This document shows, piece after piece, positions 30,267-58,350 of a DNA stretch of 64,000 nucleotides. The number at the start of each line of letters is the position of its first letter. Position 1 is the stretch's first letter. Under the pieces are notes generated by a model. The model was not told the DNA's origin. It did not search any database and saw only the letters and a program-made list of their open reading frames with translations. Source of the DNA: Polynucleobacter sp. MWH-Svant-W18. GTDB lineage: Bacteria; Pseudomonadota; Gammaproteobacteria; Burkholderiales; Burkholderiaceae. A program made the translations under genes and the position numbers. Where the stretch lies: positions 992,001 through 1,056,000 of the forward strand of contig NZ_CP061293.1 in the NCBI RefSeq assembly GCF_018687495.1, given 5' to 3'.

Positions 30267-32033
30267 TCAAAAGGTATAACTGGCAGTAGCCCAAGCTCGG
30301 GGTTGTGTTGTGGTTCCGTCTGTATTAACGGGTTGACCAGTAGAGCTATAGAGTGGATTTTGGCCAACTTTCCAGGCAACCATTGCACCAATACCCCATC
30401 CTTCATAATCCCACTTCACCCCAAAACCAGCACCCATGAGTGAGTAGGTATTGTTGGCATTGGTTTGGCCTTGCCAGCCTGGATACAAATTCTTGTACTG
30501 TTGCACAACGCCAGCATCAAAGAAAGTGGATAAGGTGAACTTTTCATGTAATTGATGTCTCAGCTCAAGTGTAAAAATACCCCCTTGGGCCCCGCCAGAC
30601 TGAGCAACTGGATAAGCGCGTACTCCATATGGTCCACCCAAATACAGTTGTTCCGCAGTGTTCAAGTTAACCGAAGAAAACTGTCCCGATACAGCAGCGT
30701 AGAGATTGGTTGTGCCATCTTCAACCAATTGCTGCGTCCGGTTCGCAGCAAAAGCAAGCTTTGTAAAGTTTGCTGGTGTGACTACACCATACTGGGTAGG
30801 CGTAGTGTTCGGAATGGAATACATCCCATAGTTAGCCTGACTAGTTGCCAAGATATCTAAATGCCCAAATATTAAAGAGACAGAACCACTGTTAACGGCT
30901 CCATGCCAAAAGCTATCGGCAATATTTCCGGAAAGACCTGCAGAAATATTATTGATGTTGTATGCACTAACAACTGAGTCAGTTAAGAAGTTGCGGTTGT
31001 TATAACTTTTAATGTCGTAGTTTAGTGAGCCATTTAAATTAGCGCCTTGACTACGAATCAAAGGATAGGCCGCACTCACACCGGTTGTCCATGCATCGCC
31101 TGCACCACCATTGGACGTATAGTTACTCACGTTCTTGTAATTTAGAAAAGTGCCTGCTAAACCCAAACGTAATCCATCTGGAGATACGGGGACGGAGATT
31201 GCGCCTTGTAAGTATTGCGATCCTTGTGAAGCAATCCCATTTAATGAGAATTGATCACCAATGCCAATGGGATTATTGATGTTGAGGGCAACCACTCCTT
31301 GGTTTGCACCAGTCGTCCTACTGCCGTAGTTATTTGCCTCCACCCTTCCCTGCACCAGCTCAGGTTGGGTTAATTGCAAACGCAGATCTGTATCCCCATC
31401 CTTTGCGCCAGGCTCTAATTGACTTGACACTATTACGCCAGGAGTTTCATTCAAAATGATTAGGGCGCGCTCAATGGAGGGCATGCTCAGTGGATCGCCC
31501 ACTGGGTTGGCATAAGTAATGTATTCGGCGGCACGCTCTTTACTAAAACGCGTCGGTCCTTTGGGAGTCTCGACTACGACCTTACCCAGCTTTGCTTCGG
31601 TTACCAAAATCTTGACGACCCCACCAGCAATTTTTTGTGGGGGCAGAATTGCTTGAACGGTGTAGCCTTTTTTACGGTAATAATCTTGAATGGCATTGCA
31701 GGCATTTTGCAAATCATCAAAGCCAATATCTTTACCAAGCCATGGTTTAAGTACTGCCTGAATATCTGCCTCAGGCAGAAGCTTGACGCCCTCAAGCACG
31801 AAAGAGTTCACTGTAAAACGCACATCGCCTGCTTTGGCTTGTGTCGCCTTTTCTTGCTCCTTAGTAGTGGCTTCTGGAAGCGCTAATGGGGAAGGCAATG
31901 GCAATTGCTGCTCCAGCCCCCGCTGGAGAGCGCCGGCATCTACTTGAGCATGGGCCAAAGAAAATGCACCGATGAGGTGGCAAATAAAGGCCGCAGACAA
32001 TAACCTGAGGAGGGTGGTGATTGGTGCTGCCAT
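30267..32033 (-). CDS. TpsB-type outer-membrane transporter (ShlB/FhaC/HecB family)
   Basis: Outer-membrane partner of two-partner secretion, exporting a TpsA exoprotein. After a signal peptide ending SLAHA come a proline-rich linker, POTRA-like region (FTVNSFVLEGVKLLPEADI and DYYRKKGYTVQAILPPQ) and a 16-stranded barrel with alternating hydrophobic strands and a C-terminal phenylalanine. The conserved VRGY loop motif reads VRAY here. The frame begins at 32075, but the ATG at 32033 gives a better signal peptide; no ribosome site decides it. No TpsA is adjacent; the candidate substrate gene is at 54655-58149. Confidence 0.88.
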   Translation of the reverse strand: MAAPITTLLRLLSAAFICHLIGAFSLAHAQVDAGALQRGLEQQLPLPSPLALPEATTKEQEKATQAKAGDVRFTVNSFVLEGVKLLPEADIQAVLKPWLGKDIGFDDLQNACNAIQDYYRKKGYTVQAILPPQKIAGGVVKILVTEAKLGKVVVETPKGPTRFSKERAAEYITYANPVGDPLSMPSIERALIILNETPGVIVSSQLEPGAKDGDTDLRLQLTQPELVQGRVEANNYGSRTTGANQGVVALNINNPIGIGDQFSLNGIASQGSQYLQGAISVPVSPDGLRLGLAGTFLNYKNVSNYTSNGGAGDAWTTGVSAAYPLIRSQGANLNGSLNYDIKSYNNRNFLTDSVVSAYNINNISAGLSGNIADSFWHGAVNSGSVSLIFGHLDILATSQANYGMYSIPNTTPTQYGVVTPANFTKLAFAANRTQQLVEDGTTNLYAAVSGQFSSVNLNTAEQLYLGGPYGVRAYPVAQSGGAQGGIFTLELRHQLHEKFTLSTFFDAGVVQQYKNLYPGWQGQTNANNTYSLMGAGFGVKWDYEGWGIGAMVAWKVGQNPLYSSTGQPVNTDGTTTQPRAWATASYTF

Positions 32034-32129
32034 GGATTCAGAGACAATATTCAGAAAGGTTAAAAGTTGTGTCATTTTAGAGCTTTAAGGAGCTTTGCAT
32101 CAAAACTGCCATACAGGTTAATATTTCGT

Positions 32130-50467: not shown

Positions 50468-50947
50468 TTACTTGGACTGCTCTTTAGTTTTATAGGGCAT
50501 CTTGCTCAGGAGGCAGACTTCTTCGCTCACATGCGTTCCATTTCCAAGACTTGCCCCCAAAATACCACCCTGAATTTTTTCTACCTTCCTTAGCTTACCG
50601 CTTATCGGATCTAAGGTAATCAGTGTAGACACTTTACCTGCCGGGTAAGCAACATTCATAATCTCTTCAGGCTCAAAGCTTGCCTCAATTGCAATCAGAA
50701 TATTTGGCCTAGCCATGGTAATGCTCTTGACTTCTTGCTTGCCAAATTCGTCAGATTGATCAAGGTCGCGACCATCGAGAAATACCTTAGCCTTCTGAGT
50801 GCCTGAGGCTAAGGTGAGCTTCATTTCATATTCTTCTACATAGTCTTTTTCGGTGCGTTTGCACTGAAACTCAAGAACATCTACGCCCCATGCGGCAAGA
50901 GAGGAAACACTTAAGCAAACGCAGACGAAGGATTTTAGTAGAGTCAT
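50468..50947 (-). CDS. secreted protein of unknown function
   Basis: A 159-residue protein with a signal peptide (about residues 1-20). The mature part has two cysteines and a beta-rich pattern (VLEFQCKRTEKDYVEEYEMKLTL). I do not recognise a family. Convergent with exbD. Confidence 0.65.
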   Translation of the reverse strand: MTLLKSFVCVCLSVSSLAAWGVDVLEFQCKRTEKDYVEEYEMKLTLASGTQKAKVFLDGRDLDQSDEFGKQEVKSITMARPNILIAIEASFEPEEIMNVAYPAGKVSTLITLDPISGKLRKVEKIQGGILGASLGNGTHVSEEVCLLSKMPYKTKEQSK

Positions 50948-50998: not shown

Positions 50999-52219
50999 CT
51001 ATGTAAATTTAGAAATGGTATTTGCAATATTGTTGATGTGGTCTGAAACACCAGATCCACTATCGTCAGCACTGGGAGTCGGAGGCTGATTATCACTGTC
51101 ATCATCATCTTCACTTGCAGTGACAGCCATGACTTCCTCGGGAGCTTTGAACCATTTGAATATAACCAATAACACTGAAATCAGCGACATGACTAAACCA
51201 AAAAGGTTTTGAATCTGAGAAATCATTGCTGCAGTAATCAGGGGCTGCTTACTCGCAATGTATGCCTCAGTACCATCCGATATTGGAAAGCCAGACGGTG
51301 TCAACATCTTATCTTCTGAAATAGTGAAATTAAAACGAGAGGCTACTTGCGGGCTGTATAGGACTGGCAGTAAGGCAGCGATTGCCTTAGGATCCACGTT
51401 TTTATTGGCAAGAAGATTCAAATTAACACCTACCACCTGAATGTCTGTTGCGGGTATTGGTGGAGAAATTTGATACATATAGGCCAAGATCTTGGTATCT
51501 GCTACCCACCCCATCCGCAGTGCCAGGGATGGTGGAAAAGACATCTCTAAAAGCTGATACCCCCGTTTTTGAACCAAAAAGTCGACTATGGCTGATGGCG
51601 CATATGAAACTTGCACAACTACATCAGGGAGTCGTTCAGGCTTCATGCTGAGCAATTGCTCATCGCTAAAGTTGGTCTCAACATAGTCTACCTCGGGCAT
51701 TAGGCCTGAGAAGCGCAGAATTTGATTAGAGACAATACTAGGGCCGCCATTCTTTTCACCAAGATTGACAGTCTTGCCGTGAATGTCATGAATGTTTTTG
51801 ACGTCGCCCTTCACTAAGAACTGGATAAGTTGGGGTGCTATCGATGCGACTTGTCGGACATCATCGTAACCAACTGGATCAATACCTCCTTGGACAAATG
51901 CCAAGTCTAAAGTGCCACTATTCAAATCATTCAGCGCCTCAAAAGATCCCGCTGTTGGTGTAATCGTTAATGTGATATTCCTGCGGGCAGCTTCGTCTTG
52001 CAAAACTTTCGCTAACTGGTGACTCTTGGTAAGCATACCGCCGCCACTGATGCTTAACTCATAATTGCGTGGGTATAAGTCATAAGCAAATTTACCAGCC
52101 AATATTAGCAAGGCTCCAATCAGACCAAGCGCTAAACCCCTGCGAATGTGATGCTTGCTTCTCAGCCAATCAAGGGCTTTAAATAAATATTCCTCTACTT
52201 CGTTTGATGGAGTTGCCAT
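50999..52219 (-). CDS. TAXI-family TRAP transporter binding protein with membrane anchors
   Basis: A 406-residue protein. After an N-terminal membrane segment (28-47) comes a TAXI-type solute-binding domain (SISGGGMLTKSHQLAKVL, FVQGGID, KTVNLGEKNGGPSIVSNQIL). A second membrane segment (about 333-353) and an acidic 50-residue tail (SEDDDDSDNQPP) follow. TAXI proteins normally feed DctQ/DctM permeases; none is nearby. The anchors suggest a sensing or assembly role rather than free transport. Last gene of the tpsA operon. Confidence 0.8.
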   Translation of the reverse strand: MATPSNEVEEYLFKALDWLRSKHHIRRGLALGLIGALLILAGKFAYDLYPRNYELSISGGGMLTKSHQLAKVLQDEAARRNITLTITPTAGSFEALNDLNSGTLDLAFVQGGIDPVGYDDVRQVASIAPQLIQFLVKGDVKNIHDIHGKTVNLGEKNGGPSIVSNQILRFSGLMPEVDYVETNFSDEQLLSMKPERLPDVVVQVSYAPSAIVDFLVQKRGYQLLEMSFPPSLALRMGWVADTKILAYMYQISPPIPATDIQVVGVNLNLLANKNVDPKAIAALLPVLYSPQVASRFNFTISEDKMLTPSGFPISDGTEAYIASKQPLITAAMISQIQNLFGLVMSLISVLLVIFKWFKAPEEVMAVTASEDDDDSDNQPPTPSADDSGSGVSDHINNIANTISKFT

Positions 52220-52231
52220 GATTGTGATGCC

Positions 52232-53071
52232 CTATCTTGAGACCTGAGTTAAGCCATTCTTCACAAATATCTCTTGACCTGCTTCACTCATGCTGTAGTG
52301 GACAAAATCTTTAGCAATCTCGCTGGCAGAATTTTTGTTCACCAAGAACATATCTCTGCACAATGGGTAAAGCTTAAGTAGTAGGGTTTTGTCGCTAATT
52401 TCCACTCCATCAATCGCAACAGCCTTGACTTTATTGGTGAGATTTTTGATGGTGAGATATCCAATTCCATCGGGATCTTGAGCAACTGCTTCAGACAAGG
52501 CAACAGCGTTATCGGTAACTTTGGCATCCCGAGCAAATTTAGCCCCCCTCAGAATGACATCCTCGACAAATGCTCGCGTGCTTGATCCCTCGCTGCGGCT
52601 ATACACATTAATTTTTTTATGTGGCCCGCCTAGTTGATCCCAATTTGTGATCACCCCTTCGAATATGCCATTTAGTTGCGCAAGAGAAATATTATTAATA
52701 TTCATCTTCGGATGGACAACAATGGCTATACCCTCAATACCAATCAGGTGACTATGTATGTCGAGGTTGAATTCTTCAAAATTTAAATCCCGGGACATCA
52801 TGGCTAAATCGATTCCGCCATTCTCCAAGGTCACGAGACCTACAAATGAGCCACCGCCCTCAAGACTTACTTTGACAAGAGGGTTCTTCTCAATAAACGG
52901 TGCAATCAGTAAAGCAATAAAACGGGTTACAGCTGTCGACCCAGAAATCATCAACTCTTTTTTTGCTCTAGCCAAAATATAAGGATAGGCAATCAGGCCG
53001 GCTAGCGCTGCTCCGCCAACACCAGCGCCAATTGCAATATTTCGGAGTAATTGACGGCGATTCATCATCAT
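52232..53071 (-). CDS. PstS-like substrate-binding protein with twin-arginine-like signal
   Basis: A 279-residue PstS-like binding protein: SGSTAVTRF (residues 43-51) matches the oxyanion-binding loop, then NWDQLGG and SRSEGSSTRAF. The N-terminus NRRQLLRN followed by a hydrophobic stretch resembles a Tat signal, possibly uncleaved. No pstCAB is near. Overlaps the next gene upstream by four bases, so the two PstS-like proteins are made together. Confidence 0.78.
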   Translation of the reverse strand: MMMNRRQLLRNIAIGAGVGGAALAGLIAYPYILARAKKELMISGSTAVTRFIALLIAPFIEKNPLVKVSLEGGGSFVGLVTLENGGIDLAMMSRDLNFEEFNLDIHSHLIGIEGIAIVVHPKMNINNISLAQLNGIFEGVITNWDQLGGPHKKINVYSRSEGSSTRAFVEDVILRGAKFARDAKVTDNAVALSEAVAQDPDGIGYLTIKNLTNKVKAVAIDGVEISDKTLLLKLYPLCRDMFLVNKNSASEIAKDFVHYSMSEAGQEIFVKNGLTQVSR

Positions 53072-53856
53072 TTACCCGCTACTGGAACTAAGCCCAGCTC
53101 CTTAATCATGGCCTGCCCTTTGTTTACATCCAAACAATAGGCAATAAATTCTTTCACTTCTTTATGCGCATTAGGTGCTACCAAAAGCTGTAAGTCATTG
53201 CGAATAGGGTATTCATGTTGCTTGATGGCCTGATAAGTTGGCAAAACCCCATTGATTGCTAAAGTCTTTACTTTCTCTTTTCTTAAAAAAGTTGTTCCAA
53301 CCCATCCAATGGCAAACGGATCGGTTGAGATCTCTTGCATCAAAGAATGGATTCCAGTGATCACCTTAGCCTTTAAGGTGATGTGATCATTACCAGTAAC
53401 CTGCCGCTTCCAAGGCTCATAGGTGCCTAGTTGAGGATCATGACTAACGACATTGATAGGGCCAGAATATTTTCCTAAAGCATTCCAGTTGGTAATACTT
53501 CCAGTAAAAATGTCATGCAGCTGATCCAAAGTCAACTCATTGATCGGATTGGCTGGATTGACAATCGCGGCTAAACCATCGGTTGCAATTGTCACTTCTT
53601 CAATCTTGTATTTGTATTTATGTGCCCATACTTGAATATTAGGGGGCATTTGCCCAGAAGCCATACCAATATTGGTAGTGCCGTCCAAGGCAGATTTATA
53701 GCCCATGGCAGTTCCACCAGCGAGCAAAGGGATGCGAATATTGGGATGCTCATCCATATACCGCATGCCAATCTGTTGCATCAATTTCATCACTGTGGAT
53801 GAGCCACGCATTTGAATGAAATGCAGATCTTTCAGATTCAAAGCATCACTGGACAT
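53068..53856 (-). CDS. PstS-like substrate-binding protein without signal peptide
   Basis: A 262-residue PstS-type protein: MRGSSTVMKLMQQIG (residues 16-30) and the EELTLDQLHDIFTGSITNWNAL-like block are clear. No signal peptide is visible and no alternative upstream ATG restores one; the frame closes inside the DUF4239 gene. It begins two bases after that gene's stop. Either it stays in the cytoplasm or it is exported in an unusual way. Confidence 0.75.
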   Translation of the reverse strand: MSSDALNLKDLHFIQMRGSSTVMKLMQQIGMRYMDEHPNIRIPLLAGGTAMGYKSALDGTTNIGMASGQMPPNIQVWAHKYKYKIEEVTIATDGLAAIVNPANPINELTLDQLHDIFTGSITNWNALGKYSGPINVVSHDPQLGTYEPWKRQVTGNDHITLKAKVITGIHSLMQEISTDPFAIGWVGTTFLRKEKVKTLAINGVLPTYQAIKQHEYPIRNDLQLLVAPNAHKEVKEFIAYCLDVNKGQAMIKELGLVPVAGK

Positions 53857-53858
53857 CG

Positions 53859-54632
53859 TTAAGGCCCCAGAGAAGGAATCACGTGGACAATCGCCTCTGG
53901 AGTCACTTGACTCTCACCCACAAACAATCCCTCTAGGGCAATGACTAGGGTGAACAAAACTGCCACGCCAATAGTCACCCCGCCTACATAGGCCACCATT
54001 TTGGGTAAAGGGTTCTGTAGCCAACCAAAAATGATGAGCATAGCGACGGATATAGCTAATGCGTCCCATAAATACGATGGCACTTTGAGTCTGGCAGCAG
54101 ACAAACGCGCTTCTCTCACATCTGATAATTGATTGAGGGTGGTGACAATTTCAACCCGCGCCATTTGTTGCACGGGATTTTTGGGATCCAAGAGTCGAAT
54201 ACCCTGGGTCAAATCTGTTAATACATTAGAGGCTTCTTCACTGCGCTCATTTTTAGCCATCAGTGGCCACTCATCAGTCACAACAGCCTGCGCATAATTT
54301 TTCAAATCACCTTGCAGCTCTGGAGCATGTTGCCCGTTAAAAGAGGCAAGCGAACGATTGAGCTTGAACATTAAAGCTGCTTCACGGGACACTAAATCTT
54401 CCACGTTCCGGTGATCGCCTTGAACGCGCACTAAAGAAAAGGCAATCAACAGTAAAGTTATGGAGGTGAATAATTTAAAGCCCTCTTCCGCGCCCTTAGC
54501 CAAATGCTCGTCAGGGTTAAGTTTATATTTCCAGCGGATGTAAAGAGGAATAGCGGTTGATAGTATTAAACCTATCACCATGATGCTGATCCCAATAACA
54601 ATATTGGGCAGCGAGTGCAGAAAGCTCATCAT
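53859..54632 (-). CDS. DUF4239-like membrane protein
   Basis: A 257-residue membrane protein with about four segments (10-31, 53-69, 189-205, 211-236) and a soluble helical loop between the second and third containing NVEDLVSREAALMFKLNRSL and DVREARLSAARLKVPS. This resembles the DUF4239 family, some members of which are bestrophin-like. Function unknown. Located 22 bases after tpsA. Confidence 0.72.
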   Translation of the reverse strand: MMSFLHSLPNIVIGISIMVIGLILSTAIPLYIRWKYKLNPDEHLAKGAEEGFKLFTSITLLLIAFSLVRVQGDHRNVEDLVSREAALMFKLNRSLASFNGQHAPELQGDLKNYAQAVVTDEWPLMAKNERSEEASNVLTDLTQGIRLLDPKNPVQQMARVEIVTTLNQLSDVREARLSAARLKVPSYLWDALAISVAMLIIFGWLQNPLPKMVAYVGGVTIGVAVLFTLVIALEGLFVGESQVTPEAIVHVIPSLGP

Positions 54633-54654
54633 TCTCTAGTAATCCCCAAGTCCA

Positions 54655-57600
54655 TTAGTGGATGATAAATAAATTCAAAGTAGACATGAGATTCACTGAC
54701 TCAAGACTTTCATAATAATTTTCAGTACTACGGGACCGACCCGCATTTGCTACACCAGAATTTCGTATCGATGGTACATCATCATAGGACTGAGCTAGGC
54801 TATCCCCACCCCGTATGACCGGTGCTGGCATCACTTCAGTGGCTACCCCAGGTGGAAACGCAGAAATATTTCCAGCAAAGGGATTTTGTCTCATCGCGGC
54901 AATCGCAGCAGGGTTATTGTTGACGGCATTGATACGATTGGCGTACTTACCCTCTCTTGGGGCATTCGGCTTGGTACCAGCCACAGGCTTATTTGAACCC
55001 TCTTTAGTTCCTGGCTTATCAGTGTTGCGTACGCCATTGGCGTATTTACTAACGTACTTGGTTGAGCCGGTAGTCGACTTAGTGCTGCCATCTTTACCAT
55101 CCACCTTGTCCGTACCATCCTTATTGGAGCCATATTTTCTTGACTCAGAGTTGGTTCCGTCCTTGTTACTTGAACCCTCCTTATTTGCACTCTCTCGTGC
55201 TGAAGAAGAGGGACGTGCTGGTGGTGGATTGGCCGCAGCTGGAGGTGGAGCCTCAGCGGGTGCATTGGGCGCTGCTGGCGGAGTCAACTGGATACTGCCA
55301 TCAGCCAAAACGCTCAAAGGTGCTGCTTTTGCTGGTGGTGCAGCCACCTCTCCTTTTGCAGCGGAAGGAGGGGCCTCTGGCGCCACAGGAGCTGCAGGGG
55401 CAACATTCGCCTCTTTAGTTGAAACTATATCTAATTTTGCTGGCGCTGGCTTTGCCACAGGAATACTAAATACTGCTGGTGGCGGAGCTGGAGGCGGTGG
55501 AGGTGGTGCAGTAACTACTGCGGGTGAAGTTGTGCCTGTTGCTGAGGTTCCTGTTGCTGAGGTGCCTGTTGCAGAGGTGCCTGTTGCAGAGGTGCCTGTT
55601 GCTGAGGTTCCTGTTGCTGAGGTGCCTGTTGCAGAGGTGCCTGTTGCAGAGGTGGCAGCACTAGCTGTGAGTGTGCCTTCATTTGCACTTACCTGTGAAG
55701 AGAAGCTAGTAATTTGTGATGATGAGATGGCTGAACTCATGATGATGGGGGTGATTGCCTGAGAATTAATGGTTTTACCCATGACACTGAAATAGCCAGA
55801 GCCACCAACATTAATAATGGTGTGCCCATCAACATTAGTAGAAAGCGTTGTTGTGTCACCTAACAATGCAATACCACCCACGGCACTACCGTTAGCATCA
55901 ATCTGAGAATTACTGATAGTAAGGTTATTGGTAGCTGTTAACGCAATATCACCACCCACTCCACCTGCAGCTTGTGCAGCTTGAATGATTGCATTAGAAA
56001 TTGATAGGTTCCCCGCCACTGTTGCCAGAATAATGGTGCCGCCACTTGTCAGGCTGGATGCGGAACCATTGGCCTGGATCATTAATTGCTGAGAAAGGGG
56101 GCTAGTCGAAGGCGGAAAGTAATCGATCGTTATTGCGTTTGCTGCAAGCAGTACAATTGTGCCGCCGTTACCACTAATAGTTCCGTTAGCCTGAATTAAG
56201 CCCTCTGAGTAAATAGAATCGTTTGCGGCGACCATAATTAAACCGCCCCCATGATCGCCATTGGCTTCCAATTTACTGCCTGCGCCAAGGTTGATGGTAT
56301 TAGCTAGCAACTTCATATTGCCAGCGGTACCACCTACCACTGAACTGGTAGTGGAAAGTCCACCAGAAACGTAAATGGCTTGAGCTAGCAACTCAATCGC
56401 ATAACCCAAGCTACCAGAGCTTGCTCCAAGTAGATCATTAAAAGCCCAAATCTTGCCTGAGATCCCCACGTTAATGGTTCCACCTTGAGCTTGTGCATAT
56501 ACAGCACCCGCCTGTATGGTGCTATTAATGTTAATAGTGCCGTTATCGGCGTAGAGGTATAGACTGGTTAAGGGATTGGATGAAAGTACATTGGCTAAAA
56601 AGCTGATTACCGCTGTGGAGCTCGATGCACAACTCCCGATAGGACCACACGCTGAGGTCATCGCATCTAAAGTCACATTGGTATTAGCCAGTGCATTAGT
56701 CAGCGCAATAGCTGCTGGTGCATCAATCACAATTGAAGTTGGATCGGTATACCAATTGCCATATTTGCCTTGAGGGGCTCTGGTATCAACCTCCAAACTC
56801 AGACCATAAATCACCCTACCCGCCGAGCTAGTTTCAATAAAACCACCATTACCGGATAACACACCGCCCATGGATTTGAGGATGCCAGCGACTGTGGTTT
56901 GCACTTGAGACCAAATTGCAATAACGCCACCGTTACCTGACTGGGTCGCTGACGCATCAATTAGTGCGCCCTCTTGGACAAGCACGGTTTGTGCGAGCTG
57001 ATGATTGATTGCTGCTTGGCTTGCGTTAGCTTTAACACCGGCTTGAGTTGGAGAGTTGATTTGCATGCCGCCAGATACTTGGGTGTTCGCTAAGCCAACA
57101 TTCACCTGTCCACCACCAGTTGCTCCGGTGGCTGTTGTCTTAGAGTTGGTCACCAGCGTAATGTCACTACCCACGAGATTAATTTGGCCGCCTTCTGCAG
57201 CCTTACTATTGGCGCTCAATTTGCCAGCTTGGTTCACGGTATTGGCAACCAGCTCTATAACACCGCCGTTATTGACGGCAGAGCTTGCTGATATACGGCC
57301 CGTATTTTTGATAACGCCGGCCATCAATTGGTTTGCCGCACCTGCTGCAAGTACAACCAGGCCGCCATTCACCTCAACGACTCGCTTATTTTCAATCAGG
57401 CCGTTATAGGTGGCAATATCTACCTTGATACTGACCAGTGAATTGCCCTTAAAGTCCAAGGTTACTTGCTCACCCGAAGCCATGGCAACGGTGCCCGAGC
57501 CCTTTTTGGCTAACAAGTAGCCTTCATTACGGACTTCAGGAGCAAGTAAGGCAATGTAACCACCCTCAACATTGGTTTTGATTTTGCCTTCGTTAATCAC

Positions 57601-58149
57601 TGCCCCAGTGCCATTGCCTTTGAATGTCGACTTACCATCCATAAAATCTTTATCGGCGATATTCATGGTGCTGGCAACTACACCAGCGGCATTCACCTCT
57701 GCGCCCCTACCGAAAGTCACACCATTGGGATTAACAAATATCACTTGGCCATTTGCCTTGATTGCGCCATCGATCATCGATTGAGTAGCGCCAGTCACGC
57801 GATTGAGCGTCACCGCACTTGCATTGGGTTGATTGAAATTGACTGTCGCATTCTTGCCGACATTAAAACTATCCCAATTGATCACTGCACGTTGTGAACT
57901 CTGGTTCACATTCATCGTGGCAGTAGTTGGGGTTTGTGTTTGGGAAATCGTTGCGCTACCAGCAACCACTTGGCCGTTGGTCGGCAATGCAGTTGGTGCT
58001 GGTGCTAATGGGGCTGCCTGAATTACGCCAGGCAGGCAAGCCAGAAAAAAAGAAAGTGTTGATACCTGCTTAATCGCTGAGGAAAAAGTAAAGCACAACC
58101 CAGCAAGAGAACGACGGGATGAAATCCCCTTAGCAGTAGTCAAAATCAT
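54655..58149 (-). CDS. TpsA-type exoprotein (filamentous haemagglutinin N-terminal domain)
   Basis: A 1164-residue secreted protein of two-partner secretion. Signal peptide about 1-45, then the TPS secretion domain with NQPN (106-109) and NPNG (140-143), followed by beta-helix-like repeats (ANGGVIEL-type) to about residue 810. Residues 832-872 are eight GTSAT pentapeptides, then proline/alanine-rich and lysine/glycine/serine-rich low-complexity stretches to the C-terminus, which ends SVNLMSTLNLFIIH. The likely exporter is the TpsB at 30267-32033. First gene of the five-gene minus-strand operon; a tRNA-Leu gene lies 112 bases upstream. Confidence 0.9.
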   Translation of the reverse strand: MILTTAKGISSRRSLAGLCFTFSSAIKQVSTLSFFLACLPGVIQAAPLAPAPTALPTNGQVVAGSATISQTQTPTTATMNVNQSSQRAVINWDSFNVGKNATVNFNQPNASAVTLNRVTGATQSMIDGAIKANGQVIFVNPNGVTFGRGAEVNAAGVVASTMNIADKDFMDGKSTFKGNGTGAVINEGKIKTNVEGGYIALLAPEVRNEGYLLAKKGSGTVAMASGEQVTLDFKGNSLVSIKVDIATYNGLIENKRVVEVNGGLVVLAAGAANQLMAGVIKNTGRISASSAVNNGGVIELVANTVNQAGKLSANSKAAEGGQINLVGSDITLVTNSKTTATGATGGGQVNVGLANTQVSGGMQINSPTQAGVKANASQAAINHQLAQTVLVQEGALIDASATQSGNGGVIAIWSQVQTTVAGILKSMGGVLSGNGGFIETSSAGRVIYGLSLEVDTRAPQGKYGNWYTDPTSIVIDAPAAIALTNALANTNVTLDAMTSACGPIGSCASSSTAVISFLANVLSSNPLTSLYLYADNGTININSTIQAGAVYAQAQGGTINVGISGKIWAFNDLLGASSGSLGYAIELLAQAIYVSGGLSTTSSVVGGTAGNMKLLANTINLGAGSKLEANGDHGGGLIMVAANDSIYSEGLIQANGTISGNGGTIVLLAANAITIDYFPPSTSPLSQQLMIQANGSASSLTSGGTIILATVAGNLSISNAIIQAAQAAGGVGGDIALTATNNLTISNSQIDANGSAVGGIALLGDTTTLSTNVDGHTIINVGGSGYFSVMGKTINSQAITPIIMSSAISSSQITSFSSQVSANEGTLTASAATSATGTSATGTSATGTSATGTSATGTSATGTSATGTSATGTTSPAVVTAPPPPPPAPPPAVFSIPVAKPAPAKLDIVSTKEANVAPAAPVAPEAPPSAAKGEVAAPPAKAAPLSVLADGSIQLTPPAAPNAPAEAPPPAAANPPPARPSSSARESANKEGSSNKDGTNSESRKYGSNKDGTDKVDGKDGSTKSTTGSTKYVSKYANGVRNTDKPGTKEGSNKPVAGTKPNAPREGKYANRINAVNNNPAAIAAMRQNPFAGNISAFPPGVATEVMPAPVIRGGDSLAQSYDDVPSIRNSGVANAGRSRSTENYYESLESVNLMSTLNLFIIH
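55535..55654. repeat. 15-bp tandem repeat, eight copies, with exact 60-bp duplication
   Basis: Unit CCTGTTGC[T/A]GAGGT[T/G] on the plus strand, eight copies in a row, in frame with tpsA and encoding GTSAT pentapeptides. Copies 1-4 (55535-55594) and 5-8 (55595-55654) are identical in the order of their variants, so the last change was a 60-base tandem duplication. Copy number can vary without breaking the frame. Confidence 0.95.
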
Positions 58150-58261: not shown

Positions 58262-58350
58262 TGGTGCCCGAGGCCGGAATCGAACCGGCACGACTTTTTT
58301 GAGTCGGCAGATTTTAAATCTGCTGTGTCTACCGATTTCACCACTCGGGC
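58262..58350 (-). tRNA. tRNA-Leu (anticodon TAA)
   Basis: An 89-base class II tRNA with acceptor GCCCGAG, anticodon stem-loop GCAGA-TTTAAAA-TCTGC giving TAA, variable arm GACTCAAAAAAGTC, T-loop GTTCGATTC and encoded CCA. Reads UUA and UUG. Upstream of tpsA on the same strand with no clear terminator between. Confidence 0.97.

Follow-up and report, generated by a model that had tools for sequence, protein, structure and literature searches.

What can a secreted exoprotein, a channel-like membrane protein and three solute-binding proteins do together when they are encoded side by side with no permease? The question is raised by five minus-strand genes, running from position 58149 to 50999, in a stretch of 64,000 nucleotides (the window) from the 1.77-Mb, single-contig genome of Polynucleobacter sp. 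MWH-Svant-W18. An earlier note on this DNA had described the five ORFs and their spacing, and recomputation reproduced its coordinates and the gaps of 22, 2, −4 and 12 bases. It had named the products as a two-partner-secretion exoprotein (TpsA), a DUF4239 protein, two PstS-like proteins and one TAXI-type protein. The family profiles agree, and PF14023, the DUF4239 family, is now named Bestrophin-like. The Pfam matches of all five products (TPS, PF14023, PBP_like_2 twice and NMT1_3/TAXI) exceed the Pfam cut-offs, and the three binding proteins are also recognized by the TRAP_TAXI and PstS-family models of NCBIfam, with scores under the curated cut-offs. To this description we add a TpsB partner, a tRNA-Leu gene beside TpsA, the signal-less state of one PstS protein and a conserved TpsA tail.

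Gene order, distribution and insertion site

The presence of the unit in other genomes was assessed with the bestrophin-like protein, for which an orthologue (68–100% identity) was found in 11 of 151 sampled Polynucleobacter genomes, the present one included; the next matches lie at about 25%. The gene order, which the earlier note had considered might be unique to this strain, is the same in all ten other carriers. Across the 11 carriers the junction gaps range from −7 to 51 bases, and several junctions overlap by 1 to 7 bases; to fit this count, an internal start codon was taken for PstS2 of L045. A promoter and terminator scan of the unit gave matches not above those in shuffled sequences, the promoter matches being fewer than in the shuffles, and in GC composition the unit is not set off from its surroundings.

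Ten of the 11 units lie between orf159, which is next to exbD/exbB/tonB/murI, and a tRNA-Leu with a penicillin-acylase gene; the contigs of two of them, L039 and L042, stop short of the tRNA. In the window the tRNA-Leu (taa; 58262..58350, minus strand) adjoins tpsA and forms the upstream boundary of the unit without being a member of it. The eleventh unit (G016, L048) is found elsewhere, between serS/tRNA-Ser and other genes. An empty site, in which the tRNA-Leu is directly followed by orf159, was observed in 8 of 12 genomes that lack the unit at this place, namely seven species without the unit (L115–L118, L121, L122, L126) and the original site of G016 (L120). The other four species (L119, L123, L124, L125) carry other cargo there; in L123 and L124 the 12 kb inspected did not show the tRNA-Leu. 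A search for att-site repeats at the tRNA gave no sign of an integrase-type boundary: the best shared word is 10 bases long and lies inside TpsA. As no att-like repeats were seen, homologous exchange between the flanks is as likely as integration, in line with the description of giant-gene and cell-surface regions of Polynucleobacter as replacement islands (PMC5644125). The same order in all carriers, the second location and the clean empty site together indicate, on gene order, that the five genes are one inherited or exchanged block. That they also form a functional unit is very likely.

Some features of the site stand on their own. The 3′ side of the tRNA-Leu (taa) is variable, being empty, occupied by the five-gene unit or filled with other cargo (L115–L126), which includes FIST and GGDEF-EAL proteins (L119), an outer-membrane efflux protein (L123) and a reverse transcriptase (L124). 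In L119 the penicillin-acylase gene (L119:9894-11897) is seemingly broken into several frames. orf159 (50468–50947 in the window) adjoins the tRNA-Leu with or without the unit, and its family match is a sub-cut-off NCBIfam one only.

The five-gene form was found in Polynucleobacter only. Other genera have TpsA and the bestrophin-like gene alone, which means that the core can do without the binding proteins. The order-wide search with the PstS1 profile gave matches outside the genus (E 1e-48 to 1e-59), and at the loci inspected (L081, L085, L086) these are ordinary PstS genes that the module does not accompany.

The TpsA tail and the bestrophin-like protein

TpsA (1164 aa; 54655..58149, minus strand; PF05860, 129.5 bits) carries the TPS secretion domain at its N-terminus (aa 65–312; 57214..57957), and this is the single TPS domain of the genome. 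With the genome's one ShlB gene, both hallmarks of type Vb secretion are present. That gene encodes the outer-membrane transporter TpsB (30267..32075, minus strand), the single ShlB-family match in the genome, which is the likely partner of TpsA and lies 22 kb away. In L048, a TpsB gene comes directly after TAXI and overlaps the end of the TAXI gene; its product has POTRA_2 and ShlB domains and is 66% identical to the window's TpsB. A homologue is present in all ten other carriers (67–82% identity), whereas only 5 of 30 non-carriers, which were hand-picked rather than random, have one at 60% identity or more. The same TpsB is found near giant TpsA genes (frames of 5,500 to 15,000 aa) in several species. 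A giant TpsA is absent from the window genome, in which the TpsB gene stands alone.

Towards the C-terminus of TpsA, eight copies of a 15-base tandem repeat coding for (SATGT)n (55532..55654, minus strand) precede a linker rich in proline and alanine (aa 881–980, 31 Pro; 55210..55509). In 12 Polynucleobacter TpsAs this Pro-rich segment (27–40 Pro per 100 aa) begins 277–311 residues before the C-terminus, independent of a total length that varies from 1149 to 2639 aa; in the TpsAs of other genera it is weak or absent. The last 50 residues form a conserved tail (54655..54807), ending in RSRxxENYxESLESVNLMSTLNLFIIH, that was recognized by alignment and by an order-wide profile search. Related tails outside the genus end TpsAs directly before a bestrophin-like gene (L064, L065, L066, L067, L068, L069; the resemblance is weak in L067 and L068), and tail-bearing TpsAs precede this gene in Massilia, Comamonadaceae, Jezberella and other MAG loci. 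At every locus examined, within and outside the genus, the two genes adjoin. Among 399 genomes of the order, strong tail matches (E below 1e-20) occur in five, the same five that carry the bestrophin-like subfamily (E below 1e-100), and the remaining tail matches (E 0.005–0.01) are at noise level. Each of the five contributed to the training alignments, either itself or through close kin (G463 = L068), so this co-occurrence shows specificity rather than the discovery of new cases. Where a genome holds several TpsAs, as G024 with two and G091 with three, the tail is on one TpsA each. These data show, at the level of sequence and gene neighbourhood, that the conserved TpsA tail is tied to one bestrophin-like subfamily.

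The C-termini of TpsA proteins can stay in the periplasm and be regulated there, as with CdrA/LapG, HMW1 and HxuA, and surface display of CdrA is under inner-membrane control (PMC5422565). In the present TpsAs, no cysteine was found in the last 300 residues (11 of 11), which excludes a cysteine lock of the HMW1/HxuA type. A LapG-type (T/P/A)AAG site before the tail is not consistently present, being absent from the window TpsA and from 7 of the 11 TpsAs, and LapG-type retention was also rejected. Thus, neither of these known retention mechanisms applies.

The bestrophin-like protein (257 aa, four predicted membrane helices; 53859..54632, minus strand; PF14023, 115.4 bits) is the product of the most conserved of the five genes, with a mean pairwise identity of 84%. 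By sequence, no relative was found in the PDB. A structure model built from 12 sequences (pLDDT 70.9, pTM 0.58) gave KpBest as the top Foldseek match (E 7.8e-4), and alignment of the model to bestrophins with VIA-align covered the full length (Z 14.5, 230 residues, rmsd 4.3). The top 33 structural rows are bestrophins, one bestrophin fusion or VCCN1 and stand above the unrelated rows, in a type of comparison in which chance scores run high for helical proteins. The DUF4239 protein thus models as a bestrophin fold. A bestrophin fold alone is no proof of anion selectivity, which is not to be assumed here since KpBest itself conducts cations. The loop between TM1 and TM2 is rich in Lys and Arg; this charge speaks against the usual bestrophin orientation and makes the predicted membrane orientation ambiguous. 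Several PF14023 paralogues per genome are usual, with three in the window genome and a tandem pair in another genome of the genus (L057:5636-7240). A plasmid search with the protein returned remote relatives only.

The conservation of order and the tail also bear on an alternative in which the five genes are a co-inherited cassette for surface adaptation, with separate roles, a shared tRNA-flanked exchangeable site and no physical complex. The unrelated cargo that four species carry at the tRNA-Leu site fits such a cassette, as does the replacement-island character of giant-gene and cell-surface regions in this genus (PMC5644125). Against it stand the identical order in 11 of 11 carriers, with overlapping junctions and also at a second genomic place, and the recurrence of the link between tail and channel outside the genus. 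We regard the cassette as unlikely.

Three binding proteins without a permease

No permease gene lies beside the binding-protein genes, and pstC, pstA and pstB are absent from the operon and its flanks. The earlier note was right that neither pstCAB nor DctQM accompanies the unit: a complete pst-like operon was located elsewhere in the genome (L053, 932–942 kb), and the genome's single DctM (452 aa) is unfused and belongs to a separate three-gene set, whose 168-aa and 289-aa neighbours were assigned to DctQ and DctP by visual inspection. In a published survey, TAXI-TRAP systems were always accompanied by fused DctQM (PMC5812351). With the permeases elsewhere and with pocket and signal features that differ, the set was rejected as a fragment of an ordinary Pst or TRAP transporter.

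PstS1 (262 aa; 53068..53856, minus strand; PF12849, PBP_like_2, 97.6 bits) starts no more than a few bases from where the preceding gene ends and, by hydropathy, has no hydrophobic N-terminal stretch or export signal in any of the 11 orthologues. Its ligand motif is altered to SHDPQLGTY (53419..53445), compared to SRxxxSGT in PstS. In the general form SHxPxLGTY the pocket Arg is replaced by His in all 11 orthologues and the Ser by Leu in ten, with Arg in L048; this uniformity suggests constraint rather than decay. One cysteine is invariant, slightly favouring a cytoplasmic location. Because an export signal is missing in all orthologues, PstS1 would be either cytoplasmic or carried out together with PstS2.

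PstS2 (279 aa; 52232..53071, minus strand; PF12849, 115.8 bits) keeps the pocket Arg and Ser in an anion-type motif. Its N-terminus carries the twin-arginine motif NRRQLLR (53042..53062), identified by motif comparison and conserved as xRR[QE][FL]L[RKQ] in all 11 orthologues. The hydrophobic stretch of the signal is visible in the alignment and falls under the hydropathy threshold in some rows. With a TatC gene in the genome, Tat export of PstS2 is predicted. Proteins without a signal can leave the cell as hitchhikers on a Tat-signalled partner, for which PaoABC and others are precedents (PMC4273604), and by this analogy we infer that PstS1 may be exported with PstS2. If true, these binding proteins would be exported as a folded pair.

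The TAXI-like protein (406 aa; 50999..52219, minus strand; PF16868, NMT1_3, 50.9 bits) lies over the Pfam cut-off and under that of NCBIfam TIGR02122, and solved TAXI proteins match its profile with E values of 9e-7 to 3e-5. Its structure prediction reached a pLDDT of 35. Hydropathy indicates a membrane helix at each end in all 11 orthologues, here at aa 28–46 (52082..52138) and aa 339–357 (51149..51205). The earlier note had tentatively placed all binding proteins in the envelope. This is borne out for TAXI by its membrane helices and probably for PstS2 by its Tat-type signal, but not for PstS1. The small anion that the note saw as relayed stays hypothetical, with an anion-type pocket in PstS2, a pocket that has lost Arg and Ser in PstS1 and a channel fold that need not be anion-selective.

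The missing permease, the loss of the pocket Arg and Ser in PstS1 and the anchoring of TAXI at both ends would fit a reading in which the PstS and TAXI folds have given up nutrient binding and serve as periplasmic chaperones or scaffolds of TpsA, with the bestrophin-like protein as membrane anchor, in an accessory set for secretion or quality control. On the other hand, PstS2 retains its pocket motif, and TpsAs without binding-protein and bestrophin-like genes are common in Polynucleobacter, so that such a set is not needed for TPS secretion in general. This reading, too, seems improbable to us.

Three binding folds next to one channel fold, with no other permease, might also point to solute uptake, in which the binding proteins would deliver solute to the bestrophin-like protein as permease and the exoprotein would collect it at the surface; HxuA, also a TpsA, links capture at the surface to uptake (PMC5422565). 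Such a system is difficult to reconcile with the other genera, which have TpsA and the bestrophin-like gene without binding proteins, and with the missing signal peptide of PstS1, and we consider it very unlikely. Bestrophin-fold channels are not known to accept substrate from binding proteins, which counts further against uptake. Contact-dependent inhibition, with TpsA as CdiA and the small membrane-protein gene that follows as immunity gene, was rejected as extremely improbable, because the 50-residue C-terminus is conserved instead of being a variable toxin, the gene after it shows the highest conservation of the five, unlike immunity genes, and PADLOC gave no defence match.

Proposed mechanism and comparison with known systems

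The best explanation for the whole is, in our tentative view, a TPS exoprotein unit that brings along its own partner complex in the inner membrane, although we put it somewhat below an even chance. The beta-helical part of TpsA would reach the surface through TpsB, its Pro-rich linker would span the TpsB pore or the periplasm, and the conserved tail would be held in the periplasm. For docking of this tail on the bestrophin-fold channel, suggested by the constant neighbourhood of the two genes, the odds are slightly below even. PstS1 and PstS2, whose genes would be translationally coupled, would pair up, with PstS1 either exported by means of the Tat signal of PstS2 or remaining on the cytoplasmic side. 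PstS2 and TAXI would capture a small solute at the inner membrane and, once loaded, set the state of the channel or determine how firmly the TpsA tail is held. Exoprotein display or ion flux would then track solute supply. The three binding folds would have been added in Polynucleobacter, probably making this state solute-dependent. Such control of TpsA display or of channel gating by a solute is possible but doubtful. The most elaborate form, an envelope-spanning signalling device in which the tail is wired to a channel gated by membrane-bound binding proteins, one of them Tat-exported with a signal-less partner, is rather unlikely.

All parts belong to known families. In the searched literature, which was short on subscription papers, no paper was found that connects DUF4239 to TPS or reports a filamentous hemagglutinin of Polynucleobacter, and the combination of genes as well as the tail–channel link appear undescribed. 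Together with the shared order in other species, this supports the view of the earlier note that the genes form a conserved, undescribed unit linked to the surface. Little is known about the function of bacterial DUF4239 proteins and of orphan binding proteins, and the link between tail and subfamily gives them a concrete, testable partner. Because the carriers are freshwater bacteria that do no harm, such tests can be carried out in practice.

The TAXI-like protein resembles TRAP TAXI proteins in a family match that is weak but consistent (11 of 11), and differs from them by its helices at both ends, its score below the NCBIfam cut-off and the lack of a fused DctQM. PstS1 and PstS2 share fold and family with PstS (TIGR02136-like, below cut-off), and PstS2 the anion motif; unlike PstS, they have no PstCAB, PstS1 is without signal peptide and pocket Arg/Ser, and the signal of PstS2 is of the Tat type. 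The signal-less gene beside a twin-arginine gene is reminiscent of Tat hitchhiker pairs (PMC4273604), although these two are binding proteins rather than cofactor enzymes and form a putative pair. The bestrophin-like protein shares with bestrophins of the KpBest type the Pfam family PF14023 and, as a predicted model, a full-length structural match, whereas its identity is about 10%, its loops differ and it is linked to a TpsA. Like CdrA, HMW1 and HxuA, the present TpsA combines an N-terminal TPS domain with a special C-terminal segment that would stay periplasmic. In contrast to these proteins, its tail has neither a cysteine lock nor a consistent LapG site, and where CdrA is served by LapD, the inner-membrane protein linked here has a predicted bestrophin fold and is accompanied by binding proteins. 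The link between tail and channel thus suggests a form of exoprotein control that dispenses with both the cysteine lock and LapG.
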